DNA of 64,000 bases from Halalkalicoccus sp. CG83 (GCF_037081715.1 NZ_JAZDDH010000002.1:124001-188000), one strand, 5' to 3'. Positions 29,047-46,901 are shown, counted from the first letter of the stretch. A program made the numbers and translations. The notes: generated by a model not told the origin, from the sequence alone.

Positions 29047-30198
29047 TTATCGCCGTTTCTCTGGCACCAGCGGGCCCAGCCCCTTGAGATCCAAACCCTG
29101 GTGAACCGGGAGCGTGTGGAGGTGGGTGGCGAGGTAGTTCTCCGTCTCGAACTCCGCGTCGTCACTGATCTCGTGCGGCAGCGGCGGCCACGGTGCGCTG
29201 ACTCCTTCGAGGGGGCCGAGGTCGTCCGGGTCGTCGACGAACACGGTGTAGTACTGCGGACAGACGCCATCGGGGAGTTGGGGAAACACCGGCTCGACGC
29301 CCTCGACGTCGCGGATCGCTCGGTCCCAGACCCGGTAGTTCGCTCGTCTGGCGGCGATCACGCGTTGGGGATCCGTCCGGTCGAACACCCGCAGTGCGAG
29401 TCGAGACATCGGTCCCTTCGCCTCCTCGTAGATCGATCGGGGATCCTCGCCACCGTCCGCCACCTTGTGATCGACCGCCGTACGCGGCCCGGGGATCCGA
29501 TCCCGCAGCCATCGGATCGCGGACAGGGCCTCCCGTGCAACGGGGTAGCCGCTGACGGATCGACCGAGCGACCGTGCACAGTAGCGGTAGTCGTCGAGAC
29601 CGTACCGACTTCGGACCTCCGAGCGCGTGAGGTCCGTCTCCGAGAGTGACTCGTTCGAGACGAACAACAGGGCGCCGTTCGGTACCGGAAGCAGTTTTCT
29701 GAGGCTCGTGATCCCGATGTCGCCGAGCGTTCCGAGCAGTCGACCCTCGCTCGTGCTCAGCGGAGCGTGGGCGTTGTCGTCGATCAGGAATGCGTCGTGT
29801 TGCTCACACAGCGTTCGCATCGTCGAGACGTCCTCGGGGGGTTGAGGATGCCCGAAGTAGTGTGTGAGCATGGCCGCGAGCGATTCCTCGTCGAGGAGTC
29901 GCTCGACGTCCTCGAGGTTCGGACGGAGCCGCCGATCACACCGGTAGTATCGGGGCTCGAGCCCGGCGTCTCGAAACGACTCGATGATCCCGTGTGGCAG
30001 ATAGGCCGGGAGGACGACGTTGGTCGTCTCGGGTCGTTCGGCCAACAGCAGATCGAGACCGTCACGCACGGCGATCTTGCCGTAGCCGTAGAACGCGTAC
30101 CGGGACGCGCCGTGCTCGGTCAGATACGAACGCATACCGTCGGTTCTCGGCCGTCTGAACACGGTACGGGCGGTGAGTCGAGGGTTTGAGCCGGGCAT
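29047..30198 (-). CDS. DegT/DnrJ/EryC1-type aminotransferase-like protein
   Basis: A 383-residue fold-type I PLP protein. The stretches NVVLPAYLPHGIIESFRDAGLEPRYY, FLIDDNAHAPLS (PLP Asp) and ITSLRKLLPVPNGALLF (lysine at the Schiff-base position) fit sugar aminotransferases of the DegT family. The usual SFxxxK motif is reduced to SLRK. It is the last gene of a four-gene operon and would make or modify an amino sugar, if active. Confidence 0.75.
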   Translation of the reverse strand: MPGSNPRLTARTVFRRPRTDGMRSYLTEHGASRYAFYGYGKIAVRDGLDLLLAERPETTNVVLPAYLPHGIIESFRDAGLEPRYYRCDRRLRPNLEDVERLLDEESLAAMLTHYFGHPQPPEDVSTMRTLCEQHDAFLIDDNAHAPLSTSEGRLLGTLGDIGITSLRKLLPVPNGALLFVSNESLSETDLTRSEVRSRYGLDDYRYCARSLGRSVSGYPVAREALSAIRWLRDRIPGPRTAVDHKVADGGEDPRSIYEEAKGPMSRLALRVFDRTDPQRVIAARRANYRVWDRAIRDVEGVEPVFPQLPDGVCPQYYTVFVDDPDDLGPLEGVSAPWPPLPHEISDDAEFETENYLATHLHTLPVHQGLDLKGLGPLVPEKRR

Positions 30199-30213
30199 GA
30201 AGGGGAGGTGGGT

Positions 30214-31239
30214 TCAGCGGGGAAACGGGACGAGACTACGCAGACCGCGAACGGTGCTCACCGCCTCCGCGCGCGGGGAGCGCCTTCGTACGCCGTGATA
30301 GGCCGCAAGATCCGGCGCGAACTTCGACTTATACCGGCAGATCCGGCGCTGGTTCGCGCCCACGAAGTCGTAGCGCTCGATCCCGCGGGACTTCGCGTCC
30401 TCCATGATGTGCCAGTCGAGCAGGTCGTTGACCGGGATGTCGACGTCGCCCTTGGTGCCGCCCTGCCAACGGTAGATCGTGTCGTCGTGCTCGATGGCGA
30501 CGATCCCGCCGGCCATCCCACCGTCGGTCGTATAGCAGGTGTACGGTTTGATCTGGTCGTCCGGAAACGTCTCGTACAGCCGAGTGACGTAATCGTCGTC
30601 GATGAAGTAGGGCGTGTCCTGGTCCTCGTGGCGCTCGCGGACGCGATCGATGATCTCCTTTGCCTCGTCGAGGCCGCCGATCTCGATCTCGTAGGCGTCC
30701 TCGTCGGTGTTGCGGACGTTCGAGCGTGCGTCGCTCGAGAGCGCCATCAGCAGGTCGTCCGTATCGGGGGTGAGGTCGGTGACGTACGTGTAGTAGGGTT
30801 CGACCTCGTAGCCCTTCTCCTTGAACGGTCGGTGATCGAGATACCGGTCCGTGTTTCGGATGTGGGTGAGGTCGGGTTCGAGGTTCGCCTCGATCCACTC
30901 GTGGCAGGTGTAGACGAACCGCCGGTTGCGCCGCTCGAGCTTGCGCTGTTTGAGCTGATGGGCGTCGAGCAGCGCCGCGCCGAGGTAGTAGACCTCGGTA
31001 TGGGAGGGCGGGGTGACGACCAGCGTGAACGGTCCCTTCCGTTCCTCGAAGACGGGGAGGATGCCGACCGCCTGTTGGCCCTTGTACGCGACGAGCGGAT
31101 GAAGCGTCGTGTCGGTGTGATCGGCGAGCAGTTCGAGTCCCGCTCGCTGATGGAACGGACCCGCCTCCTCCGAGCGGCTCACGTAGCTGTCCCACTGTTC
31201 GAGTTCGTCTCCTTCGGCACGTCGTACTGTGATGCTCAT
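30214..31239 (-). CDS. FemAB/GNAT-fold aminoacyl- or acyltransferase
   Basis: A 341-residue protein with two GNAT-like halves. The ending is typical of the FemAB-like (BioF2/peptidoglycan-bridge) group: GGIVAIEHDDTIYRWQGGTKGD, VNDLLDWHIMEDAKSRGIERYDFVGAN, CRYKSKF. In bacteria such enzymes attach amino acids to cell-wall precursors; in archaea, which lack murein, they are thought to decorate surface glycans. Its start overlaps the phosphatase gene's end by 4 bp. Confidence 0.8.
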   Translation of the reverse strand: MSITVRRAEGDELEQWDSYVSRSEEAGPFHQRAGLELLADHTDTTLHPLVAYKGQQAVGILPVFEERKGPFTLVVTPPSHTEVYYLGAALLDAHQLKQRKLERRNRRFVYTCHEWIEANLEPDLTHIRNTDRYLDHRPFKEKGYEVEPYYTYVTDLTPDTDDLLMALSSDARSNVRNTDEDAYEIEIGGLDEAKEIIDRVRERHEDQDTPYFIDDDYVTRLYETFPDDQIKPYTCYTTDGGMAGGIVAIEHDDTIYRWQGGTKGDVDIPVNDLLDWHIMEDAKSRGIERYDFVGANQRRICRYKSKFAPDLAAYHGVRRRSPRAEAVSTVRGLRSLVPFPR

Positions 31240-32849
31240 TCGTTACCCTCCAGATAACCGAGAGCCGACAGCCGGTCCTCGATCTCCTCGTCGTCGGTCT
31301 CTCGCACGCTCTCGTCCAGTTCGGGGTAGCCGTACTCCTCGGTGGCGTCGACCGCCGGGAGCACGTCGCCGTCCATCCGATCGCTTCTCGGCGCGCCGAG
31401 CGCGGCACAGATCGTCGGCGCGACGTCGAAGAGGTGTGCGTCCCCGAGGTCGGCGTCGGCGTCGACTCCCTCGCCCGAGATCGCGACGATCCCGTCGCGC
31501 TTGTGGTTCCACGGCTCGGACGGCGGACCGAACACCTCCCCCTTGAAGTCGGCCGAGAGGAACTGCTCGAACTCGTTGGGGACCATCACGACGTCGACGC
31601 TCTCGTCGGCGTGGGGCCCCCAGAAGTACTCCTCGCGCGGGCCGACGGCCTCGAACATCGCCTTCCCGTCCGGCGTCTCGACGTCGGAGAGCAGTTCGAT
31701 CAGCTCCTCGCGGACCGACTCGTACTCCGACTGCGGGACGATCCCGTCGGGTTCGCGTCCCTCGACGTTCATCCGCAGTCCGAGTTCGATCCGTGAGCGC
31801 ATGTACGCCGCCGACTCGGCGAAGTCGACCTGTTCGTTCCCCGCCCGTCGTGCGTTCGCGGGGATCACGCGCTTGACCAGCCCATCGAGGCCGGCCGCGC
31901 GGAGCGCCCTGCCGGCGCGGGCGGGCGTGATCCCGACTTGGGCGGCGGCGCCGATCGCCCTGCCCGCCAGCCCCGGCGAGGGCGCCTCGGCCTCGCCTCC
32001 CTGGCGGAGCTGGCTGTTCAACATCGGAAGCCAGGCGGGCATGCCCGACCCGCCGGTCATCGTCTCGACGTATCCCTCCTCGTCGAGGAACTCGTTGACG
32101 CGGAGTTCGTACTCGTCGTAGCGTCCCATCCCGTGATCGCTCGCGATGATCACGGTGTCGGGATCGCAGTCCTCGAGTAGCGTCCCGACCTCCTCGTCGA
32201 CCGCCCGGTAGATCTCCTCGACGTAGTCCTGGCGGTCGGGGTTCTCGTGGAAGACGCTGTCGGTCTGTTGGAACTGAACGAATCCGAACTTGGGCTCGAA
32301 CCGCTTGGCGAGATACCGGAACGCGGCCCCGCGCATCCGCACGAGGTCGACGTACTCGCCGGGCTGCTCGCGCTCCTCGTCGGGGTAGACGCGGTACTCG
32401 CCGATCTCCTCGCGGATCTCTGAGAGCAGACCCGTCGGATGACAGTCGGGGTTCTCGGGGGCCGTGTAGCCCGGCACCACTGCGCCGTCGATCTCCGGCG
32501 GCGGCGCCGTCACGGGGACGTTGACGACGACGCTGCTCATCTCCTGGTGGGTGAGCAGCTCCCAGAGAGCCGCCTCCCGGACGTGCGTCGCGTTGACGAC
32601 GTCCCAGTCGTAGCCCTCGTAGGTGAGAAAGCCGAACACGCCGTGTTTGCCCGGGTTTGCGCCCGTATACAGCGATGGCCACGCGCTCGCGGTCCAGGGC
32701 GGGATCTGGGACTCGAGGGGGCCGCTCGCCCCGTCCTCGATGATCGACTCGATGTTCGGAAGCGCGTCCTTCTCGAACAGGGGATCGAGGATCGGTGCAC
32801 AGGCGGCGTCGATCCCGATCAACAGCGTGTCTATCGACTCGTTACTCAC
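31236..32849 (-). CDS. Alkaline-phosphatase-superfamily phosphodiesterase
   Basis: A 537-residue protein of the type I phosphodiesterase/nucleotide pyrophosphatase group. The N-terminal LLIGIDAACAPILDPLFE gives the first metal Asp, PPWTASAWPSLYTGANPGKHGVFGF the Thr nucleophile region, and VIIASDHGMG the second metal site; a late DLGDAHLFDVAPTICAALG completes the fold. There is no signal peptide, so it is probably cytoplasmic. It overlaps genes on both sides by 4 bp. Confidence 0.85.
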   Translation of the reverse strand: MSNESIDTLLIGIDAACAPILDPLFEKDALPNIESIIEDGASGPLESQIPPWTASAWPSLYTGANPGKHGVFGFLTYEGYDWDVVNATHVREAALWELLTHQEMSSVVVNVPVTAPPPEIDGAVVPGYTAPENPDCHPTGLLSEIREEIGEYRVYPDEEREQPGEYVDLVRMRGAAFRYLAKRFEPKFGFVQFQQTDSVFHENPDRQDYVEEIYRAVDEEVGTLLEDCDPDTVIIASDHGMGRYDEYELRVNEFLDEEGYVETMTGGSGMPAWLPMLNSQLRQGGEAEAPSPGLAGRAIGAAAQVGITPARAGRALRAAGLDGLVKRVIPANARRAGNEQVDFAESAAYMRSRIELGLRMNVEGREPDGIVPQSEYESVREELIELLSDVETPDGKAMFEAVGPREEYFWGPHADESVDVVMVPNEFEQFLSADFKGEVFGPPSEPWNHKRDGIVAISGEGVDADADLGDAHLFDVAPTICAALGAPRSDRMDGDVLPAVDATEEYGYPELDESVRETDDEEIEDRLSALGYLEGNE

Positions 32850-34870
32850 CGCGGGCCCTCCGGCGGCGTGATTCGTTCCTGGTCGTCGATTCGGTCATCG
32901 TCGGTGTACATGGTGGCTATCTCTTCAGTTGTTGGCATCGTAAGTACGGTCAGAAGCGTATAGAGCTCCACGACGTTGTTCTCCCCGTCGAGGTGGTCTC
33001 GATAACAGTTGCGGACGTCCTCGAACTCGACGAACGGCAGTCGCTCGATCAGCTCCGCACGTGATTCGATCGCCTGCCAGTAGAAGTCGTCCCTCCGAAT
33101 CAGCTCCGCGTCGTTGATCCATGACCCGTTGCTGAGGTGTGACTGCGGCGGGCTCTCCCCCATGGCGTGTTTCCGCCAGAGGGCGTAGAACGTGCGTCCG
33201 AGGTAGTCCACCGGAAACGAGTGATCGAGACTCAGTCCCGTGTGTGCGTGCGGGATCGACGCGAGCTTCGGATCGAGGCGTTGGATGGCGGCGTTGATGA
33301 CGTTTCGTCGCAGACGATATCGGATCGGCATCCGAAGCGAGAGGTCCACGAGACGGTTGTCCAGAAACGGCGTCCGGTAGGGAAGCATGCTTCGGAGGCT
33401 GTTGCGGAAGATGATGTCGTCGTCGTTGGTCAGCGGGAAGTAGCCGCTGGTGTAGACGAGGTCGTCGATCGAGTCGTAGCGAACGCCGTGGTGAACGATC
33501 TCGTCGCCGTCGCGGTAGACGTTCTCCTCGAGCACCGTCCGGAGGTCGGTCGACAGCGGCAGGCTGTCGTCGCTCGGAGCGCTCTCGAGGAGCCAGTCGA
33601 TGAACTCCGGAAGGCTGTCGATGCTCGACTCGATCGGCAGCGTGAGGTTGCCGATCGGGTCGAGCGAACACGACGGCGAGGGGACGGCATGGCCCTTGAA
33701 CAGCGTGTCGGCGTACATCCCCGAGAGCAACACGTCGACCCGGGAGGTGATCTCCCGCTCGAACCCGCTCGCGTACCCCTGTGTGAACCAGCCGTTGAAG
33801 TTGTTGAACGCCCGGTTTCGATCGAGCGCGCTCGCCTGGTAGTTCGGGTCGCGTCTGAGGAAGACGAACTCGTTGCCCGACTCGATCGCCACCCGTTCCG
33901 CGGTGCGGGCCTCCCGGCTCATCCAGTCGGCCATGTGGAAGGCGGTCACGTTCGAACCGAGCGCTGCGAGGTTGAGACGGGAGTCGCTGCCGCCGCTGAG
34001 CAGCGCGCCGTACCGGAGGTCGTCGCGGCGCCACTCGTCGATCACCTGCTTGAATGTCCGCGTGAACTCGTCGGCGAACGCGTCGAAGGAGACCTCCTGC
34101 GGGCGGAACCGCGGCTGCCAGTAGCGTTCCGCGTCGATCGAGCCGTCCTCGAGATCGATCGTCGAGACCGTCGCCGGCTGGAGCTCCTCGATACCGGCAA
34201 GCGGTGTCTTCACGCCGAACGTCCGGCGATAGACCAGATACTCGTGGAGGTAGCCCAGATCGAACTCCGTCTCGACCTCCGGACGTCGCGCGACGTTGTC
34301 GATGTCGGTCGAGAACGCGACGCCGTCGTCCGTCCGGGTGTAGTAGACCGGGATCGACCCCAGTCGATCGGTGACGACCGATAGTTCGCCGGCCGCCTCG
34401 TCGTGAACGAGGACGACGCAGTTTCCGTTCAACCCGCCCACGAACTCCATGCCGTGGGACTCGTAGAGCTCCGCACAGTAGGCGGCGCTGTCGACGCTCT
34501 GAGGTCGGGGTCGGTGTCCGTCCGACCCGCCGATCGCCGTGTCGTCGAAGCCGTAGACCTCGCCGAGCACCCAAACGCGGACCGTCTGGTCGATGTCGAC
34601 GGGCCGGCCGTCGCCGAGCAGCGGGTGGGTGACGAGTCGAACCGACAACGCCTCGTCCGTGAAGTCCGAGACGGCGTACTGACTCGAGCGGGAGGCGGTC
34701 CTCTCGGGGAGGTCGTGCCCGACTGCTCCGTGGACCCCAGTAAGCCGCCCGTCGTCCTCGCGACGCTCCTCGTCCCCCATACCACGTCGTGCATCGGGGA
34801 ATGGGTTGAATCCTGCGGTCCGCTCACCTGACTCGAACCGCCGTCTCGCTCGCTTCATGCCGTCTTCCAT
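32846..34870 (-). CDS. Asparagine-synthase-like amidotransferase lacking the glutaminase Cys
   Basis: Up to 674 residues; starts at 34858 or 34780 are possible. The N-terminal region folds like an Ntn glutaminase (GNCVVLVHDEAAGELSVVTD, GVAFSTDID) but no Cys2 is present, since VHGAVGH replaces the CGI start. The synthetase part has the pyrophosphatase loop GALLSGGSDSRLNLAALG. It may use free ammonia or a partner, or adenylate and join other substrates, as in surface-glycan clusters. It is the first gene of the operon; AT-rich promoter sequence (TTATTTATTTTTTCT) lies just upstream. Confidence 0.78.
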   Translation of the reverse strand: MEDGMKRARRRFESGERTAGFNPFPDARRGMGDEERREDDGRLTGVHGAVGHDLPERTASRSSQYAVSDFTDEALSVRLVTHPLLGDGRPVDIDQTVRVWVLGEVYGFDDTAIGGSDGHRPRPQSVDSAAYCAELYESHGMEFVGGLNGNCVVLVHDEAAGELSVVTDRLGSIPVYYTRTDDGVAFSTDIDNVARRPEVETEFDLGYLHEYLVYRRTFGVKTPLAGIEELQPATVSTIDLEDGSIDAERYWQPRFRPQEVSFDAFADEFTRTFKQVIDEWRRDDLRYGALLSGGSDSRLNLAALGSNVTAFHMADWMSREARTAERVAIESGNEFVFLRRDPNYQASALDRNRAFNNFNGWFTQGYASGFEREITSRVDVLLSGMYADTLFKGHAVPSPSCSLDPIGNLTLPIESSIDSLPEFIDWLLESAPSDDSLPLSTDLRTVLEENVYRDGDEIVHHGVRYDSIDDLVYTSGYFPLTNDDDIIFRNSLRSMLPYRTPFLDNRLVDLSLRMPIRYRLRRNVINAAIQRLDPKLASIPHAHTGLSLDHSFPVDYLGRTFYALWRKHAMGESPPQSHLSNGSWINDAELIRRDDFYWQAIESRAELIERLPFVEFEDVRNCYRDHLDGENNVVELYTLLTVLTMPTTEEIATMYTDDDRIDDQERITPPEGPR

Positions 34871-35140: not shown

Positions 35141-35643
35141 TTCCGCACTGTCGTTTCTCGTTCTGTTCCCCAGCGACGTTCTCTTACTACGAGCGAACGT
35201 ACCGATCGACCGACAGATCGATCGCTCTCTCATCCGAACGCCCGGTTCGGCGTCTGGCGTCGGAGAACCCGTTCCCGCCGACCGACGGAGACACGAGGAA
35301 CTCCATCCGTACCTTGGTGCACACGTTCCCGAACGACCGATTTCGTATCCTATGATCGCCTGTGGGGTTCGAACCGGTCGTCAATCCTTCAGACGTGTCG
35401 ATTCTACCGATGCCTCCGACGCGGAACTAAATAACTAATTTCAGACATAACAGCTATATGACTTCATTCCCATACATATGTATGACGATACGAGTCCTCG
35501 AATCCCTCTCCCTGCGTCCGTATTAGCCGTATCGATATCATAAACACTCTTTATTGCCTATTTGAAGTCAGTAAATTGACTATATTTAGTATCTATATTA
35601 TTCGAATAATTTCATATTAGTGGGGCCCCTCGGACCAATTGCA
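35141..35643. other. AT-rich island upstream of the small peptide gene
   Basis: 503 bp without a gene call. The part from about 35420 is much richer in A and T than the surrounding genome and contains two perfect 14-bp palindromes, CATACATATGTATG at 35471-35484 and ATTATTCGAATAAT at 35597-35610. It looks like a regulatory or transferred segment. Confidence 0.6.
35597..35610. promoter_or_regulatory. 14-bp palindrome upstream of the small peptide gene
   Basis: ATTATTCGAATAAT is a perfect palindrome 34-47 bp before the ATG at 35644, overlapping the expected promoter region. It could be an operator. Nothing identifies the binding protein. Confidence 0.4.
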
Positions 35644-35778
35644 ATGTCGAACGACAGCATCAAAACGTACCTGGCGGATCACCCACGAATGACCGGCGTC
35701 CTCTTCACGACCCTGCTGTTGCTCTCACAGGCGGGCAACGCGGCGGCGGGCTGGGCTACGACGACGGCTGGCCCGTAG
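35644..35778 (+). CDS. 44-residue hydrophobic peptide (DUF7503-like)
   Basis: The peptide starts MSNDSIKTYLADHPRM, continues with a hydrophobic stretch (TGVLFTTLLLLSQAGNAAA, residues 17-35) and ends ATTTAGP. From memory this matches a short haloarchaeal-only family listed as DUF7503, with a conserved LxxHPRMxGVLF start and a terminal GP. One membrane helix, or a signal-like segment, is plausible. Its stop codon directly abuts the stop of the convergent CHAT protease gene with no spacer. Function unknown; a substrate or partner of the protease is a hypothesis. Confidence 0.75.
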   Translation: MSNDSIKTYLADHPRMTGVLFTTLLLLSQAGNAAAGWATTTAGP

Positions 35779-37884
35779 TCACAACGTTCCGACGTCGACG
35801 TACTGACTCCAACTCAGTTCATTGTTGATTTTGATGGGGAACTCGTCGAGTTGGAGGAAGTCGTGTAGTTCCTGTTCCGACAGTTCGAACGAACCTATGT
35901 GGCCCGAGTTGAGGTGATGGCAATCGTTGTCCGCGACTTGGGGAAATACCATGCTCCCCATCCCTTCGACATCGTTCACATATGTCTTGATCTTCACCGA
36001 GTATGAGCTCGACTCGGGGGTTATCTGACAAACCATCGGTGATCCGCTATTCGATTGTGTGATCGTCATTCCGCCGTCCCCAATGACGATGTAGTCCCCG
36101 CCCACGACGCTCGCGTCCTTGGCCACCTCGAGCGCCGCGCGCAGCGGGAACCCGGAGTTCAACAATCGGGCGAGGTCCGAACCGATCGTGACCGCGCCGG
36201 TGTTGACGACGTCGGTCAACGTAGCGATCCCGCCGATTGCCCCCCCGTCGATCAGCGCCATCCCCTGATCGTAGGACCGGCAGCCGTTCAGGAGGAAGGC
36301 GTCGACGCCGATCCGATCGAAACCCTCGGCGTCGAGTCGGCCGTCACGACAGACGAACCCGTCTGGTTCGACGTGACCGATGTAGTGGAGGAAGTCGGCG
36401 TCCGTCTCAAGGACGGTCGCGAGTTCGTCGGTCCGTAGGTCACGCCGAACGCGCACGTCGAAGGGCAGCTCCTCGCGTGAACCGTACACCGAGTCCACCA
36501 GTCCACGCTCCTCGTCCATCTCCCCGTCGTTGCACACCACGACGACCTCGATCTCTTCGGCCGACTGTTCGCGGGCGAGGCGGTTCCGGTACGCCTGCGG
36601 GATCGCCTTGCTCGCGCTCATCGGCGTCTCCTCGCCGACCCACGTCTGCTCGAGCGAGTCGGCCGTCTCGGGTTCGACGTACGCGTTCGCCGAGGATCGA
36701 GCGACCGCGTTTCCGCCGTTGCTCCGCGTCGGACTTCGAAGGAACCCCTCGACTGCGGCGGTCTCGGTCGGCGTGGCCGGCACTCGCTCGGCGGTCGGGG
36801 TCCGTATCACCGCCAGATCGTTCACCAGAAACGGGAGCATCTCCACGCTGTCGGCAGTGGGCGTGACGTGGGAGGTGAGTTTCCAGTCGGGGAACTCCGG
36901 TTCGATCGCCTCGTAGGGAATCTCCAGGTACGCCTCCAACTGCGACGCGAGCGGCCGATCGTAGAGGGTAGCGAAATCCAGATCCAGCACGTCCTCCAGC
37001 GCGCGTCGCTCGTGGAGGTCGATCGGGTAGAGGCCCTCGGTACGAATGAGACAGTCGAGGAAGAACGTCCTCTTCAGTACGCGTTCGACCTCGCGTTCGA
37101 ACGCCTCGCCCGTCCCCAGCGGGTGGACGAGACCCGAGTCGGTGACGAGTCGGGCCTCCTCACCGGGTTCGACGGTCGCACCGAGGTAGTACGCGAGCGA
37201 CGCGGCGGGATAGACGTAGCGGTACTCCGCCGGGAGCTCCAGACGGACTCCGGTCTCCGGTGGGGCGAACTCCTCGGGGATCTCGAGGTGATCGCCGCGT
37301 TCGATCGTCGGTGGATGGCCCCGCAGGGTGGGGTAGGACCGCTCGGGGCTCGTCGTTTTCAGCGCCGATCCCAGCGCGGAGACGGCGGCCATCACGTCCT
37401 TCGGATCGTCGGTCGTCGTGATCGTTCCGGCGGGTCGGTCGTGCTTCGAGCGCGCGCCTAACGTGACGCTCGTCGGCTCGGGAAACTCGATTCGCATCCC
37501 GTCGGCGTCCGCGGAGAGGGCTACGGCCGACTCCACACGTACGTAGAGTTTCAACGGCGCACAGAGTTCGAGACCGTACGTCCCGTCGGGAAACCGTTCG
37601 TCGGCGAACTGGCCCGTCTCGGCGATCATGTGGCCGTCGCCGTCGCGGACGTACACTGCGATCGCCGTCGGCAGTACGATTGCGTCCGTCTCGACGCTCA
37701 CCGCGGCGTCGACCGGGAACCGGAACCGATCGGGGCTGCTCTCGACGGGCGTGTTCGCGCCCGACAGCAGCATCGAGTAGCGACGGCGTTCGACGGCGTC
37801 CACGACCTTGAGGGTGTCATCCTCCGACTCGAAGCGGATCGCCGTCGAATCCGTCACCGCCACCCGACCGATCGAGGGATCCAT
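35779..37884 (-). CDS. CHAT-domain caspase-like protease
   Basis: A 701-residue protein. The C-terminal third is a CHAT peptidase: LHYIGHVEPDG with His504 as probable catalytic His, and DAFLLNGCRSYDQG with Cys535 as nucleophile, followed by GGIATLTDVVNTGAV. Residues 1-200 are beta-rich and may sense a partner; the middle has helical segments (YRYVYPAASLAYYLG). CHAT proteases are the caspase-clan enzymes behind several bacterial defence and cell-death systems. No signal peptide is seen. It is convergent with the 44-residue peptide gene and divergent from the 38038 gene across 153 bp. Confidence 0.82.
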   Translation of the reverse strand: MDPSIGRVAVTDSTAIRFESEDDTLKVVDAVERRRYSMLLSGANTPVESSPDRFRFPVDAAVSVETDAIVLPTAIAVYVRDGDGHMIAETGQFADERFPDGTYGLELCAPLKLYVRVESAVALSADADGMRIEFPEPTSVTLGARSKHDRPAGTITTTDDPKDVMAAVSALGSALKTTSPERSYPTLRGHPPTIERGDHLEIPEEFAPPETGVRLELPAEYRYVYPAASLAYYLGATVEPGEEARLVTDSGLVHPLGTGEAFEREVERVLKRTFFLDCLIRTEGLYPIDLHERRALEDVLDLDFATLYDRPLASQLEAYLEIPYEAIEPEFPDWKLTSHVTPTADSVEMLPFLVNDLAVIRTPTAERVPATPTETAAVEGFLRSPTRSNGGNAVARSSANAYVEPETADSLEQTWVGEETPMSASKAIPQAYRNRLAREQSAEEIEVVVVCNDGEMDEERGLVDSVYGSREELPFDVRVRRDLRTDELATVLETDADFLHYIGHVEPDGFVCRDGRLDAEGFDRIGVDAFLLNGCRSYDQGMALIDGGAIGGIATLTDVVNTGAVTIGSDLARLLNSGFPLRAALEVAKDASVVGGDYIVIGDGGMTITQSNSGSPMVCQITPESSSYSVKIKTYVNDVEGMGSMVFPQVADNDCHHLNSGHIGSFELSEQELHDFLQLDEFPIKINNELSWSQYVDVGTL

Positions 37885-38037
37885 CGTGATGTTCTAGTTA
37901 CTATCGATAGGAGACAAAAACCTATCGCTCCCGCTGTTGACACGACTCATCGTCGACCGTTGACGAACCCTCGCATGTCAGCTTTTATAGAGATCCGCAA
38001 CGTTTATGTTTTCTTCCGTTAAGGATACAACGAGAGA

Positions 38038-38757
38038 ATGCGTGACGAGGGCCGGGATTCGGCGCGATCGGCGTACGAGGAGACCACCGCACTGGTCCAG
38101 GAGCTCGACGAGCTCAAACAGCGTGGCTCCAACCTCTTGGTGGTGGGTTCGCGGATGCCTGGCGCCCACCGCGCGGCCTGCCGACAGTTTCTCGGCGAGG
38201 AGAGTACGGGGCCGCGGCGGCGGCTGTTCGCGCTGGCGAACCCCTGTACTCCGGTCACAGAGCGCACTCCGGAGACGGAACTCGAGCCGGACTCGCTTCG
38301 CGTCGTTCGGTACGCGGCCGCGAACCGAAGCACAGCGGCTGCACGACCCGCCGTCGAGCCGAGCGTCAACGAACCGAGCGTCGATGAGACGACGATCGAA
38401 CACGACGACCTCGGTGAGTTCGGCCGGGCCGTCTCGCGGAGCATCGCCGAGTTCGAGGCCGCGAGCAGCGGGCTCTCCCCGGCGGAACTGCGCCTCTGTT
38501 TCGATTCGCTCACCCCGTTGCTCTCGGAGTACGAGCCCGAGACGATGTTCCGGTTCCTCCACCTACTCACTCACCGGGTCCGTTCGGTCGACGGGATGGG
38601 CCACTATCACCTCACTACCGACCGCAACACCCGAAGCGTCGCGCTGCTCGAACCGCTGTTCGACGCCGTCATCGAGCTCTGTCTGCACGACGGGTCGCTT
38701 CACCAGCGCTGGTGTCTCCGCGATAGCGGCTTGACGACCGGCTGGCTCCAGTTCTGA
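38038..38757 (+). CDS. DUF7504-like haloarchaeal protein (possible degenerate RecA/KaiC fold)
   Basis: A 239-residue protein. The N-terminal GSNLLVVGSRMPGAHRAACRQFL sits where a P-loop would be but lacks the GKS/T, so nucleotide binding is probably lost. Later come DLGEFGRAVSRSIAEFEAASSG, ELRLCFDSLTPLLSEYEPETMFRFLHLLTHRVR, which recall the haloarchaeal family listed, from memory, as DUF7504. Function unknown. A TATA-like CGTTTATGTTTT lies about 30 bp before the ATG. It is divergent from the CHAT protease gene, which suggests coordinated control. Confidence 0.65.
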   Translation: MRDEGRDSARSAYEETTALVQELDELKQRGSNLLVVGSRMPGAHRAACRQFLGEESTGPRRRLFALANPCTPVTERTPETELEPDSLRVVRYAAANRSTAAARPAVEPSVNEPSVDETTIEHDDLGEFGRAVSRSIAEFEAASSGLSPAELRLCFDSLTPLLSEYEPETMFRFLHLLTHRVRSVDGMGHYHLTTDRNTRSVALLEPLFDAVIELCLHDGSLHQRWCLRDSGLTTGWLQF

Positions 38758-38865: not shown

Positions 38866-39771
38866 TCAGTCGTCCGCCGGCCTCGGCGGCTCGTCGCCGC
38901 GTTCCTCCTTACGGCCGACCAGTGCCGCGAGCTCCTCGACGATCACGAGCAGTTCCGGGAGCAGTTTGACGACGAGCCAGGCGATCCCCAGCAGCGCGAG
39001 GACCGCAAGCCCCTGGGCGAGGATCCGATCGGCGACGAAGAAGGAGACTCGAAGCGGGTTCTCCAGTCCGAACAGCCACATGACGGGGCCGACGAGCGCC
39101 GGGTGGTCGAACAGCTGGTGACCGATCGAGTAGGCGATGAACACGTTGCGCACGACGTTGAGCACCCAGATGATCGAGAGCGCGGCCGCGAGCGCGATTA
39201 CGCGTCGCCGAAGCGGCGCCTGCACGGCGGCGATCAGTCCGCCGAAGATCGCCATGCTCCCGATCCCGGTACAGGCGAAGATGATCCGCGTGGAGTAGGT
39301 GCCGCCGCCGTCGAGTGCGAAGACGAACGTGTTCCTGAGCCCCTGTTCGTCGACCTCGAACGCCGGTGTCGAGCCGAGCAGCCGGAGGCCGGCGTACGTC
39401 TGGTTCGCCACCAACTCGATCAGCGTGTCGTGAAAGAACGCGATCGCCTCGAACGGCATGTAGATCAGCCCCATCACCCCGACCGCCCGCGAGAGCACGA
39501 GCAGCGAGTCGCGGCCCGCCGCGAGCCGACGGGCGACGTAGAGACAGGCCGGCACCGCCGCCACTGCGAGCACGGTCTGGACGATGCTTCGGTGCTCGAT
39601 CGAGAAGAAGGGGATCATCAGCAGCCAGAACAGTCCGAACGCCGCCCACGCGACGGCGGTGATCGTGCGCGCCGCTGACCGGTCGCGCCAATCGGCCGCG
39701 ATCCCCGTGACGAACAGCCCGACGACCACCCAGCCGAGGACGTCTGTCACCGGGGAGAGATCGGGCACCAT
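38866..39771 (-). CDS. artA: Archaeosortase A
   Basis: A 301-residue polytopic membrane protein of the exosortase/archaeosortase family. The catalytic Cys is in IFACTGIGS (Cys167), the first Arg in NVVRNVFIAY (Arg208) and a second Arg in ENPLRVSFFVADR (Arg241 or Arg249). ArtA cleaves the PGF-CTERM tail and links the protein to an archaeal lipid at the outer membrane face. Two PGF-CTERM substrates are encoded within 6 kb (40134-41060 and 41822-44113). Confidence 0.92.
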   Translation of the reverse strand: MVPDLSPVTDVLGWVVVGLFVTGIAADWRDRSAARTITAVAWAAFGLFWLLMIPFFSIEHRSIVQTVLAVAAVPACLYVARRLAAGRDSLLVLSRAVGVMGLIYMPFEAIAFFHDTLIELVANQTYAGLRLLGSTPAFEVDEQGLRNTFVFALDGGGTYSTRIIFACTGIGSMAIFGGLIAAVQAPLRRRVIALAAALSIIWVLNVVRNVFIAYSIGHQLFDHPALVGPVMWLFGLENPLRVSFFVADRILAQGLAVLALLGIAWLVVKLLPELLVIVEELAALVGRKEERGDEPPRPADD

Positions 39772-41821: not shown

Positions 41822-44113
41822 TTACTGGCGTCGGAGCGCGATGCCCGCGGCGGCCAGGAGCGCGATCAGGGCGACTGCGATGCCGAAGCCGGGCTGCTCG
41901 TCAGCGGGCGAGCCGGGCTGCTCGTCATCGTTGTTGTCGTCCTTCTTCTCGTCGCTCTTCTTCTCGTCCTTCTTGTCGTCCTTCTGCTCGTCGTCCTTCT
42001 TGTCGTCCTCGTTGGCCTTCTCGTTGTAGTCGACGTCCTCCTCACCGAGGGTCAGCGTGACCTCGTCGGGGGTCTGGTCGTCGACGGTGAGCTTGCCGTT
42101 GGCCTCGACGCCGTCGTACGAGGCGTTGACCTTGTACTCGCCGTGGGCGAGTTCGAGGGTCGCCTTGCCGTCGTCGTCGGTGGTGGCGCTCTGGTCGCCG
42201 ACGGTGATCTCCGCGCCGGAGACCGCGTTGCCGTCAGCGTCCTCGACGTTCACGACCACCGAGTGGCGGTCGCCGTCAGCGGACTCGGTCAGGATCGCGT
42301 TGACCTGAGCCTGAACGTCTCTGTCGTTCTGGTCGGTCATCGTCACGGTGAACTCCTGATCGGCCTGGTGCTCGCTCAGGTCGAACTCGGCCTCAACGGA
42401 GCCGTCCTCCTGGACCTCGACCGTCTGGCTCATGAGGAACGGGTCCTCGCCGGTGGCACGAAGCTGGACTCGGACGTCCGTACCGGGTGCCGCGTTCGAC
42501 TCACCGGTGATGACGGCTTCCTCATCGTTGGGGACCAGCAGCTGATCCTCCTTGTTGAAGTCGCCGGTGACCTCGATCATCCGCTCGACGATGCTGAACT
42601 CGGCGTTCACCGAGTCAGCGTCGAAGTAGTCCGAGCCATCCTCTTCGAGAGTGAGCTCGTACTCCTCACCCGCTTCCATGTCATCCGTGTTCAGGATAAC
42701 GAAGAAGCGGTCGTTCTCGGGATCCTCGACGAGATCGTAGTCGCTCTCGGCGAGCTGGCTACCATCGTCGTACTGGTCGTTGGTCTGCTCGAGCACGAAG
42801 TTGAAGTGGTCCTCGAACTGACCGACGTCGATGGCTCCGAAGACACCCGAGGCCTCGAAGGCGAAGACGATCGTGTCTCCCTCCGCAACCTCGTTACCCT
42901 CGCTCGTCGCGTTGGTGATGTCCTCGATGGAGCTGTCACCATCGAGACCAGCGTCGCTCGGTGCGATGCCCGTCGTCACGTCGTCAATCGAGCCCTCGGT
43001 CAGGAAGAGGGCCGAGACGTCGACTTCCTCGCGGCTGTCGCCCTCACCCACGTGGAGCTGAAGGTCGAAGTCCGCGGGGAGCAGGCGCGATTCGTCCGTG
43101 TTGTCGGTGATCAGTTGCTCGTCGTTTTCGTCGACGGCGATGTTCACGGTGTCGTCGCTGTCATCAGCCGTGTCGAAGGCAGCGTCATTGTCCTCGCCAG
43201 CGAGGTACGTGTTGAAGTACACGGTGACCTCGCCGTCGCCGTCAACGTCGTTGACGTCGAGGGTGACGTTGTAGTTGTCGTCCTGCTCGATCAGCTCGAC
43301 CTGAGCCGAGTCGGTGTTCTCCATGTCGACGGTGAACTCGACGATGTCACCGGCTTCCTCGGAGTAGGTCGACTGGTCGAACTCGGCGCTGGCGCCGCTG
43401 CTCTCGTTCACTTCGATCGTGGCGGTGTCCGATGCGTCGGTGTCCGCGACGTCGAAGTTGAACTCGTACTCGCCGGGTTCGAGCTCGCTGAGGTTCGCGC
43501 TGAAGTCACCGCGATCCTCGATGACGACGTAGTCATCGTGGACCGAGACGACGTCCTCACCGAAGATCGTCTGCAGATCCTCGCCATTGAGGCCGTCAGC
43601 GCTGACTTCGGTCTGGAAGCTCGCGCGCTCGGAGTCGATGGTCAGCGTGACATCGGAGGCTGCGTCCGATCCCTCGACCACCTGCTCCTCATCGAACTCG
43701 GCGCTGAGGGTCTGGACTCGAAGGTCGAAGGTGACATTGTTCTCACCCTCACCGTCAAGAGTGTAGGAATCTGCATCGAGGTCACTGGTGTCGATCGTCA
43801 GTTCCTCGGTTGCATCGGCACCTGCCGAGATCTGGTACTCGCGGATCCAGTCGCCATCCTCGTTGAAGAGGTCGACGGTGGTGTCCGCATCTACAGTGCC
43901 ATCAGTTGTTTCGGCGAGATCGCCGTACTGTACGAGTGCCGTCTGCCCCTGATAGAGTCGGTCTCCGTCCTCAATCGATACCTCGGATTGAGGGTTGTGG
44001 GCCGCCGCCGCCGCCCCCGCGAAGGAGACGGACATGGCGAACACGGAGAGGACCATCAGGGCGGCAAGGAACACCGCACGTCCCTTGTCGCGTCGTGTGT
44101 GTGTTTGCTTCAT
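41822..44113 (-). CDS. csg: S-layer glycoprotein with PGF-CTERM tail
   Basis: A 763-residue precursor from the ATG at 44113. Residues 1-35 are the typical haloarchaeal S-layer signal (AVFLAALMVLSVFAMSVSFAG). The mature protein is acidic and built of beta domains, with several N-x-S/T sequons (for example NVTF, NLSE, NESS, NVTL). A C-terminal Ig-like segment (GAEITVGDQSATTDDDGKA) precedes a Lys/Asp/Glu-rich stretch, then EQPGFG, a helix and ALRRQ, the ArtA recognition tail. It forms the cell-wall lattice and is anchored to lipid. Confidence 0.88.
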   Translation of the reverse strand: MKQTHTRRDKGRAVFLAALMVLSVFAMSVSFAGAAAAAHNPQSEVSIEDGDRLYQGQTALVQYGDLAETTDGTVDADTTVDLFNEDGDWIREYQISAGADATEELTIDTSDLDADSYTLDGEGENNVTFDLRVQTLSAEFDEEQVVEGSDAASDVTLTIDSERASFQTEVSADGLNGEDLQTIFGEDVVSVHDDYVVIEDRGDFSANLSELEPGEYEFNFDVADTDASDTATIEVNESSGASAEFDQSTYSEEAGDIVEFTVDMENTDSAQVELIEQDDNYNVTLDVNDVDGDGEVTVYFNTYLAGEDNDAAFDTADDSDDTVNIAVDENDEQLITDNTDESRLLPADFDLQLHVGEGDSREEVDVSALFLTEGSIDDVTTGIAPSDAGLDGDSSIEDITNATSEGNEVAEGDTIVFAFEASGVFGAIDVGQFEDHFNFVLEQTNDQYDDGSQLAESDYDLVEDPENDRFFVILNTDDMEAGEEYELTLEEDGSDYFDADSVNAEFSIVERMIEVTGDFNKEDQLLVPNDEEAVITGESNAAPGTDVRVQLRATGEDPFLMSQTVEVQEDGSVEAEFDLSEHQADQEFTVTMTDQNDRDVQAQVNAILTESADGDRHSVVVNVEDADGNAVSGAEITVGDQSATTDDDGKATLELAHGEYKVNASYDGVEANGKLTVDDQTPDEVTLTLGEEDVDYNEKANEDDKKDDEQKDDKKDEKKSDEKKDDNNDDEQPGSPADEQPGFGIAVALIALLAAAGIALRRQ

Positions 44114-44594
44114 GGTTGTTTCGTGTGACGTCGCGTTCTCGCCGTGGAGGACCCGCGTAGGCACCGATACGACGATACTGGCTCCGTCTTCTGGGTAGGG
44201 GTACTCTGATCCAGACGCAGGCCTATAATAAGCTTTGTGAAAACTTACAAAATAAAACATTTCTAGCGCCCTAATCAAGGTGGCGCGGCGTGTCGGTTCC
44301 GGACGAGCACGAGGAGAAAACGGGTCTACACGCGCTGACGGCGGGATGGCTGAGACCCCTCCCGCCGCTACCCCAGGTCTTCCTGCTGACTTCTTCCCAA
44401 CGTCTCGGAATCTGTAGGGGATCTCCTCAGAATCCGTCCCTTCTCGGCTCCCCGTCGCGGCGATCGGACGAGCCACGAAGACGTCCCGCCTGCCCTGCGC
44501 TACGGGTCTCCGCCTGGAACGGCGCGGCACGGTCGCTCGGCGGGCTTCGAAGGGGTTATGTGGCGCGTCGGCCTGGGATCCACCAAGAGTACCC
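44114..44594. promoter_or_regulatory. S-layer upstream region, divergent from L10e
   Basis: 481 bp without a gene. Read from the minus strand it contains two AT-rich elements at about 44224-44262 (TTTTATTTTG and CTTATTATAG), 110-150 bp before the S-layer ATG, so the transcript probably has an untranslated leader of roughly 80-120 nt. Nothing recognisable lies between 44280 and 44560. Confidence 0.5.
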
Positions 44595-45125
44595 ATGGTC
44601 GACAAACCCGCCTCCATGTACCGGGAGATCTCCAAGCAGCCCTACACTCGACGGGAGTACATCACGGGGATCCCCGGCTCGAAGATCGCACAGCACCGCA
44701 TGGGCGACCGCGACCGCGACCCCGAGGACTGGCCCGTCCAGATCAGCCTCTCGGTCGACGAGGAGTGCCAGCTCCGAAACAGCGCGCTCGAGGCCTCGCG
44801 ACTCGCGATGAACCGCCACCTCATCAAGGAGCTCGGCGAGTTCAACTACGCCGCCCTGCTCCGGAAGTTCCCCCACCACGTCCTGCGGGAGAACAAGCAG
44901 GCGACCGGCGCCGGCGCGGACCGCGTCTCCGACGGGATGCGCCAGGCGTTCGGCAAGGTCGTCGGCACCGCGGCGCGCGTCCCGAAGGACGAGCGCATCT
45001 TCACCATCTGGTGTGAGGTCGAGGACGCCGCCGTCGCCAAGGAGGCGCTCCGTCGTGCGTACAACAAGCTCTCGCCGCCGTGTACGGTCACCGTCGAGCG
45101 CGGCGAGAAGCTCCTGATCTCGTAA
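44595..45125 (+). CDS. rpl10e: Ribosomal protein L10e (uL16)
   Basis: A 176-residue ribosomal protein. The N-terminus [20 protein letters not shown] and the core [59 protein letters not shown] identify the archaeal L10e/uL16 family, which contacts the A- and P-site tRNAs in the large subunit. It is a single gene away from the main ribosomal operons. Confidence 0.95.
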
Positions 45126-46118: not shown

Positions 46119-46127
46119 AGGTTGATA

Positions 46128-46901
46128 ATGGCTACCCGCTCAGCACGTAGCGTGGGACACGCTCCCGAGAACGGTCCGGATCGGCTTCGCGGCCTCGACG
46201 CCGAGGCCTTCCAGTCGCTTCTCCGATCGTTCGTGACGACTCGCTGGGGCGTCGACGAGTCGGAGATCGACGTCTCGCCGCCCTCGCCGGCCCGCGGAAC
46301 CGACGTCGTCGTTCGCGGACGCGCCACGATCGTCCACGCCCGACGCTACGCCCAGGGATCGATCAGCGCGAACCAGCTTCGCGACCTCGCGCTGCTTCGC
46401 GATCGGCGGACCCTCGACACGCTCGTGGTCGTGACGACCACCGGCTTCACCGAGGACGCACTGAACCTCGCCGACGAGGCCGACATCGAGTGTATCGACG
46501 GCCGGCGACTCCACCGACTGCTCCGACGACACGACGTCACGATCCCCGAGCGTTCCGAGCCGCCGGACCTCTCGACGACGGTCGCGGAGCTCGCGGTCTA
46601 CTGGCCCGAGCAGCTCCAGGAGACCGCCCAGGAGATCGTCGCGTGTATCGACCGCTCCGGGGAGCTCGAGTACGGTCTCGACCGTGCGGACCACGGCACC
46701 GACCTCGACCTGCTCCCCCTCGGTGCGGATCATCCGACGCTCAAGCTCCGGTTCTCGACCGCCGGCCTGCTGCTTTACGCCCGCCGGCCAACGGGCTGGC
46801 GGCGGGTCGTCGCGGTCTCCGCCCACGGCGGCCACCGGCCGTCGGACCTCCTCGATCGGGTGCGCGCAGCCGCCGACGACAGCCTCGACTCGTCGGCCTG
46901 A
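46128..46901 (+). CDS. Restriction-endonuclease-like (Mrr-type) domain protein
   Basis: A 257-residue protein from the ATG at 46128. The N-terminal 120 residues (LDAEAFQSLLRSFVTTRWGV, RGTDVVVRGRATIVHARRY, DTLVVVTTTGFTEDALNLADE, ECIDGRRLHRLLRRHD) look like an Mrr/PD-(D/E)xK nuclease-like fold; the canonical catalytic E-x-K is replaced by VHARRY, so cleavage activity is doubtful. The C-terminal part is uncharacterised. It is 9 bp after the ATP-grasp gene and probably co-transcribed. Confidence 0.55.
   Translation: MATRSARSVGHAPENGPDRLRGLDAEAFQSLLRSFVTTRWGVDESEIDVSPPSPARGTDVVVRGRATIVHARRYAQGSISANQLRDLALLRDRRTLDTLVVVTTTGFTEDALNLADEADIECIDGRRLHRLLRRHDVTIPERSEPPDLSTTVAELAVYWPEQLQETAQEIVACIDRSGELEYGLDRADHGTDLDLLPLGADHPTLKLRFSTAGLLLYARRPTGWRRVVAVSAHGGHRPSDLLDRVRAAADDSLDSSA

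Follow-up and report, generated by a model that had tools for sequence, protein, structure and literature searches.

A predicted CHAT-fold protease paired with a short DUF7503 peptide gene across the Halobacteria: a candidate peptide-signalling module

We analysed a 64,000-nucleotide (nt) stretch of the Halalkalicoccus sp. CG83 genome (GCF_037081715.1, NZ_JAZDDH010000002.1:124001-188000; hereafter the window), in which the gene for a 44-residue peptide of the Pfam family DUF7503 meets, stop codon to stop codon, the gene for a 701-residue cysteine protease with a predicted CHAT/separase fold. The pairing is conserved in the class Halobacteria, and the chances seem evenly balanced that it represents a two-gene module whose functional product is the short C-terminal tail of the peptide, with the CHAT protease as the cognate partner of that tail. 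All three open reading frames (ORFs) of the locus were found where a sequence-only reading of the window had placed them. The peptide gene occupies 35644..35778 (+) and encodes MSNDSIKTYLADHPRMTGVLFTTLLLLSQAGNAAA-GWATTTAGP; the convergent protease gene lies at 35779..37884 (-), with zero spacer between the two stop codons, as that reading had described; and a 239-residue DUF7504 protein is encoded at 38038..38757 (+), divergently from the protease.

Conservation of the gene pair in Halobacteria

Eighty protease loci were fetched across the class, together with four named loci and the window, giving 88 full-length protease genes from about 55 genera; protease position was the main criterion in choosing these loci. 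A DUF7503 gene lies directly past the protease stop, on the opposite strand, in 81 of the 88, with a median gap of 3 nt (≤25 nt in 60 of 81, up to +253 nt in some loci). As a check on this protease-chosen sample, loci were also fetched by the peptide alone, and the protease adjoined the peptide in all 30 of them. On these peptide-seeded loci the pairing is well beyond chance, and the proposal of an undescribed, conserved CHAT-plus-peptide module made in the sequence-only reading is upheld.

Relatives of the protease were detected in 132 of 145 Halobacteria genomes and DUF7503 in 335 of 391 (~86% of the class), including Haloferax volcanii; in one survey, each of 120 DUF7503-carrying genomes also had a protease match. 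A genome-contig scan with P0002 returned 5 loci only. Within the phylum sample, the CHAT family is restricted to Halobacteria and a few remote relatives. No member turned up in phages or in viral contigs, and some haloarchaeal plasmids predicted to be non-mobilizable carry it.

A peptide with a signal-like core and a variable tail

The window peptide is a clear member of DUF7503 (PF24335; E 2e-23, 82.1 bits against a curated cut-off of 27). The partners are 40-60 amino acids long and, when aligned on an invariant proline, are almost gap-free, following the pattern YLxxHPRM, a hydrophobic run, SQAG, A/V-x-A/G and then usually 7-10 mostly uncharged residues, which end in Gly-Pro in 71 of 81 peptides. 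Both an R/K preceding the hydrophobic (h) region and agreement with the -3/-1 rule of signal peptidase are found in 76 of 81, so that the single-copy peptide looks, from its sequence, like a Sec pre-peptide. In the window, residues 1-35 (35644..35748, +) comprise the conserved N-terminal (n) region YLxxHPR, the hydrophobic segment and a Sec-like (-3,-1) site A-x-A, and residues 36-44 (35749..35775, +) form the C-terminal nonapeptide GWATTTAGP. The n-region and the F, Q and G of the hydrophobic part are conserved beyond the generic needs of a signal peptide, so that a specific factor probably recognises this part.

Between close relatives, the tail diverges more than the core (0.43 versus 0.07; 5 pairs in the bin). 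Tails also follow their own protease paralogue rather than the genome, the observed correlation being reached in 0 of 2000 within-genome shuffles (27 of 2000 for the core). The ratio of nonsynonymous to synonymous differences (pN/pS) of the peptide core has a median of 0.54, a value that carries no information at this divergence. CHAT columns that vary with tails lacking Gly-Pro yielded weak candidates only (position 428), and these were not used.

A class-wide promoter element upstream of the peptide

A 30-bp element, conserved class-wide at a fixed distance of ~24 nt 5' of the peptide ATG, carries 19.3 bits over its length; other upstream regions, used as a noisy control, gave 10.1. In the window it lies at 35590..35619 (+), ends 24 nt 5' of the ATG and has the class-wide consensus TATCAGAAAtnTTnAGATAAATTTATTT, within which the palindrome TTATTCGAATAA is found. 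Judged by this conservation, the peptide gene has its own putative promoter. The AT-rich island of the window is accounted for by the position of this promoter, and the palindromes, which the sequence-only reading had considered possible signs of transfer, are located in it.

In a scan of the fetched loci and the window (2.7 million base-positions, in loci chosen around this module), 66 of 77 strong matches to the element were at DUF7503 genes. A stricter pattern gave 10 matches in 97 genomes, eight agreeing with CHAT/DUF7503 positions and two (G084, G014) not; no wider regulon of the motif was seen across these 97 genomes with a pattern too strict to settle the matter.

Tandem tail arrays in genus g42

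Two of the remaining matches in the scan of the fetched loci and the window lay at L137 and L138, where DUF7503 had seemed to be missing. The ORF past each element runs tail-to-tail with the protease gene, overlapping it by 4 nt, and encodes no hydrophobic segment; it consists instead of a tandem array of tails, e.g. AAGNGSGISGP(MTADGNGSGISGP)x6, counterparts of the window nonapeptide. In the protease tree, the nearest relatives of these two loci carry one tail each, for instance GNNVGISGP.

All 12 genomes of this genus (g42) were then taken, one array including a stretch of N. Three of the 12 species keep the hydrophobic single-copy peptide, with the ends SNGGGISGP, GNSGAISGP and SNGAATSGP, and in the other nine the tail is repeated, from 2 to about 14 times, the hydrophobic segment is gone and the CHAT is intact. 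The CHATs of both forms share 79-91% identity with the L137 protein, and the g42 protease tree implies at least two switches between the single and array forms. This distribution contradicts the idea, put forward in the sequence-only reading, that the peptide is a membrane-active substrate of the protease.

Across the seven arrays analysed, all 58 of 58 full ADGNxx..SGP units are identical in amino-acid sequence within their own array, although their DNA differs. One 13-unit array reaches a synonymous divergence (pS) of 0.58 with zero nonsynonymous change, and the few counts scored as 'nonsynonymous', in two arrays, arise where a path crosses from one serine codon family to the other. The unit itself varies among species (GNSGGISGP, GNGGGISGP, GNSSGISGP, GNGSGISGP, GNGGAVSGP), and the linker between units is [YFMS][TN]AD. 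Because units are identical within arrays at diverged DNA and differ between species, the Gly-Pro-ending tail is what selection maintains; relaxed constraint does not explain the arrays, since copies would then drift within one genome. Identity within genomes combined with change between species is, as far as sequence comparison can indicate, the behaviour expected of a sequence-specific product.

The protease partner and its paralogues

His504 and Cys535, the predicted catalytic pair recognised in the sequence-only reading, are invariant in 88 of 88 full-length homologues, the conservation in orthologues that it had proposed as a test. The catalytic motifs are likewise kept in 12 of 12 g42 loci and in the 6 of 6 subfamily-1 loci examined from the window's own genus. 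Profile searches with the protease gave no Pfam family match even at E = 10 and no match to NCBIfam, PADLOC or a curated CHAT family profile, and a PDB sequence search with the protease and with its 82-row profile was also negative. An AlphaFold2 model built with 82 homologues reached a mean predicted local distance difference test (pLDDT) value of 90.3 and a predicted template modelling (pTM) score of 0.91, and its best Foldseek matches were separase (2.7e-8), SAVED-CHAT (2.6e-6), gingipain (3.9e-6) and Craspase TPR-CHAT (7e-4). The modelled fold is thus that of the CHAT/separase group despite the absent profile match. Predicted secondary structure places a beta-rich N-terminal region before the caspase fold, and neither a signal peptide nor TPR repeats were seen in the protein. 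Certain NCBI records label relatives as 'CHAT domain-containing' or 'caspase family'.

The protease tree resolves into two supported halves. In the larger half, 81 of 93 rows are paired with the peptide; in the other (subfamily 2), most copies have no recognisable partner. Next to several subfamily-2 CHATs lies a small convergent ORF of strongly diverged sequence; it still has a positive residue, a hydrophobic stretch and an A-x-A-like site, and frequently a Gly-Pro end. Beside the subfamily-2 CHATs of L161, L176 and L208, from two genera, lie hydrophilic small convergent ORFs that start with MGV and end with KRVS[TS]YGGP, possibly a third partner type without a transmembrane (TM) segment.

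The window's own genome has a second, more distant and unpaired subfamily-2 CHAT paralogue with intact H/C motifs (L160:6160-8580, +; C1:1532642-1534555), and such a paralogue is also present in the remaining well-assembled genomes of the genus. The CHAT gene is tandemly duplicated in L141, L143, L152 and L172, and in L143 and L152 one copy each lacks its own peptide. The remote homologues L168-L171 come from a different family of the phylum; the motifs are kept in three, the catalytic Cys is seemingly lost in L170, and no convincing convergent partner was seen for any of these non-Halobacteria sequences.

DUF7504 and other optional neighbours

The third protein, described beforehand as DUF7504-like and lacking GKS/T, is a true member of Pfam DUF7504 (E 1.6e-60). 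Its predicted structure has a KaiC/RecA fold (Foldseek match to the KaiC C1 domain, E 3.7e-8), and the Walker A motif GxxxxGK[ST] is absent from the window protein (P0003) and from the DUF7504 alignment rows shown, which suggests, at the sequence level, an ATPase-dead protein. The sequence-only reading had anticipated co-occurrence of all three genes in haloarchaea. This holds for the protease and the peptide and fails for DUF7504, which lies inside the fetched flanks of only 46 of 88 proteases, mostly upstream and on the same strand, and shows the divergent layout of the window at only 6 of 88 loci. Each genome has 1-15 DUF7504 copies, so the family is better regarded as an accessory than as a fixed third member.

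Genes with a HalX domain, with or without a receiver domain, adjoin the peptide or the protease at L089, L090, L114, L137, L138, L148, L127, L120, L128 and L143, which suggests two-component control. At L102, L134, L139, L149, L153 and L155, a different uncharacterised gene pair takes the place of DUF7504: the gene upstream of the CHAT carries WDxGVGWIAxPDExMRRASHA and the downstream one TRGLVDxLLxLA...PVFTHFY, and the L149 representatives have no Pfam match.

A proposed mechanism and its alternatives

We propose that the product of the small gene is a pre-peptide and that its C-terminal tail, of about 7-10 residues and usually ending in Gly-Pro, would be the functional part. In the usual form, a Sec-type signal segment would deliver the tail, and g42 would have lost this segment and gained extra copies of the tail. 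The cytosolic CHAT would be the partner of the tail, either as a receptor switched by it or as a protease handling the precursor; the tail would presumably be released and contact the CHAT, with control running in one direction or the other and the tail acting outside or inside the cell. DUF7504 (KaiC-like) and HalX-type regulators may serve as optional signalling accessories. A more far-reaching version, in which a ribosomally made, species-specific Gly-Pro peptide, present in its gene once or in as many as about 14 identical copies, is sensed (or released) by its cognate CHAT in a class-wide system of haloarchaeal peptide signalling or kin recognition, is plausible, with our judgement leaning slightly against it.

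Several observations weigh against the tail as a product with a cognate CHAT. The two forms conflict in topology: export of the tail is predicted for the usual form, and the g42 arrays, without a signal segment, should stay cytosolic; no gene for dedicated export or import was found beside the pair. A CHAT can evidently work partnerless, since most subfamily-2 copies are without a clear partner, and Gly-Pro is missing from the end of about 10 of the 81 tails. Co-inheritance of the locus may account for part of the correlation between tail and CHAT, and the tail is of low complexity, so that part of its divergence outside g42 could reflect relaxed constraint.

The conflict over where the tail resides leaves room for the chief rival account, which we consider somewhat unlikely: the CHAT would act in processing or as an executioner, and the small protein would be its dedicated intracellular substrate or pseudosubstrate inhibitor. 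The tail would then be a recognition sequence, the hydrophobic segment a mere membrane tether and the array a soluble, multivalent version. In known CHAT systems the substrate is encoded beside the protease (Csx29/Csx30, gasdermin), an array without a signal segment should meet a cytosolic CHAT, and one CHAT family serves both forms within g42; but the common form resembles an exported pre-peptide with its tail outside (the 76 of 81 noted above), and no conserved scissile residue is evident in the tail. Regulated cell death or antiviral action, with the CHAT killing or permeabilising the cell through the hydrophobic peptide, is improbable even though CHAT and caspase-fold proteases are frequent in immunity. 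Caspase-like activity has been reported in H. volcanii, a DUF7503 carrier, without a gene to account for it (PMC3615174). Partners without a TM segment nevertheless adjoin intact CHATs, and the distribution of the family is near-universal. PADLOC models matched none of the three proteins, and ten window neighbours compared with PADLOC gave no strong defence match (one at E 4e-4, from the Mrr-type nuclease 8 kb off). Given the distribution, the lack of viral-contig matches, the non-mobilizable plasmids and a single weak PADLOC match, the cell-death or defence role suggested by the sequence-only reading has no positive support here.

Two further possibilities treat the gene as toxin or regulator. 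A type-I toxin-antitoxin-like arrangement, with the hydrophobic peptide as toxin and the overlapping convergent CHAT-side transcript as antisense, would fit a small hydrophobic peptide whose 3' end overlaps or abuts that of its neighbour in most loci, but the hydrophobic segment is dispensable and the gaps of up to +253 nt argue against it, making it very improbable. Gly-Pro at a stop codon recalls known arrest peptides, and the predominance of this end (71 of 81) might point to a ribosome-arrest or slow-termination signal in a regulatory gene that has no product. We regard this as most improbable: no downstream gene is available for regulation in cis, the Gly-Pro pairs of arrays are internal with a linker after each copy, and the residues preceding Gly-Pro vary among species.

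Relation to described systems

The protease resembles the separase protease domain (SPD), SAVED-CHAT and Craspase TPR-CHAT Csx29 in predicted fold, in the H...C pair and in the HYxGH and F-L-N-x-C motifs. No SAVED, TPR or CRISPR partner was seen at the module, in contrast to those CHAT/separase-clan systems, and the gene that constantly accompanies the protease encodes a short peptide. CHAT/caspase-gasdermin modules likewise join a protease to an adjoining small gene; here, however, the small gene encodes no gasdermin domain or other pore-forming partner, and its hydrophobic segment is not essential. Yeast alpha-factor-type pheromone and neuropeptide precursors are multicopy. The g42 arrays share with them tandem identical short peptides and linkers in one ORF, each copy under strong selection, and differ in being prokaryotic and lacking a signal segment.

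In the Rgg/SHP group III, a convergent peptide gene lies beside a cytosolic receptor (PMC3679016). That group, and RRNPP systems generally, resemble the module in that a gene for a short pre-peptide lies next to that of a cytosolic partner and the C-terminal end alone is the signal; in the module, too, the neighbouring gene encodes a short pre-peptide with its conserved product at the C-terminal end. The RRNPP partner, however, is a TPR/HTH regulator, whereas that of the module is a protease, in archaea, with a conserved peptide core and multicopy arrays; TPR repeats, with or without HTH, were not recovered by Pfam, and the model predicts a beta-rich N-terminus and a caspase fold. Since these tested features fail, the module stands apart from RRNPP, gasdermin and known CHAT-effector systems. 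DUF7503 and DUF7504 are catalogued in Pfam as families of unknown function, and no papers on them or on the CHAT domain in haloarchaea or Haloferax were found in a search without most subscription papers. Within that literature, no described system with this combination was found; apparently new are the gene pairing, the array form, the promoter and the tail under selection.

Surrounding genes of the window

A cluster at 29047-34870 (-), adjoined by a tRNA-Phe gene, looks like a surface-glycan gene set, with genes of the DegT-type aminotransferase, FemAB/GNAT, type I phosphodiesterase and asparagine-synthase-like kinds. At 38866-39771 (-) is a multi-pass membrane protein with the look of an archaeosortase and no Pfam match, and near it, at 41822-44635 (-), a PGF-CTERM protein with DUF7827. 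A Mrr-type restriction endonuclease domain (PF04471, 2.8e-12) is encoded 8 kb off, at 46122-46898 (+), with a weak PADLOC match to PDC-S02.

Implications for haloarchaeal biology

Haloarchaeal cell-cell signalling is described as largely unexplored (PMC10223598). The module provides a candidate gene for such signalling and for the orphan caspase-like activity, both testable in the tractable H. volcanii, and the arrays of identical copies form a natural experiment indicating the exact residues that matter. If the proposal is true, it would add a genetically encoded archaeal peptide signal and a caspase-fold protein acting as peptide receptor or maturase.

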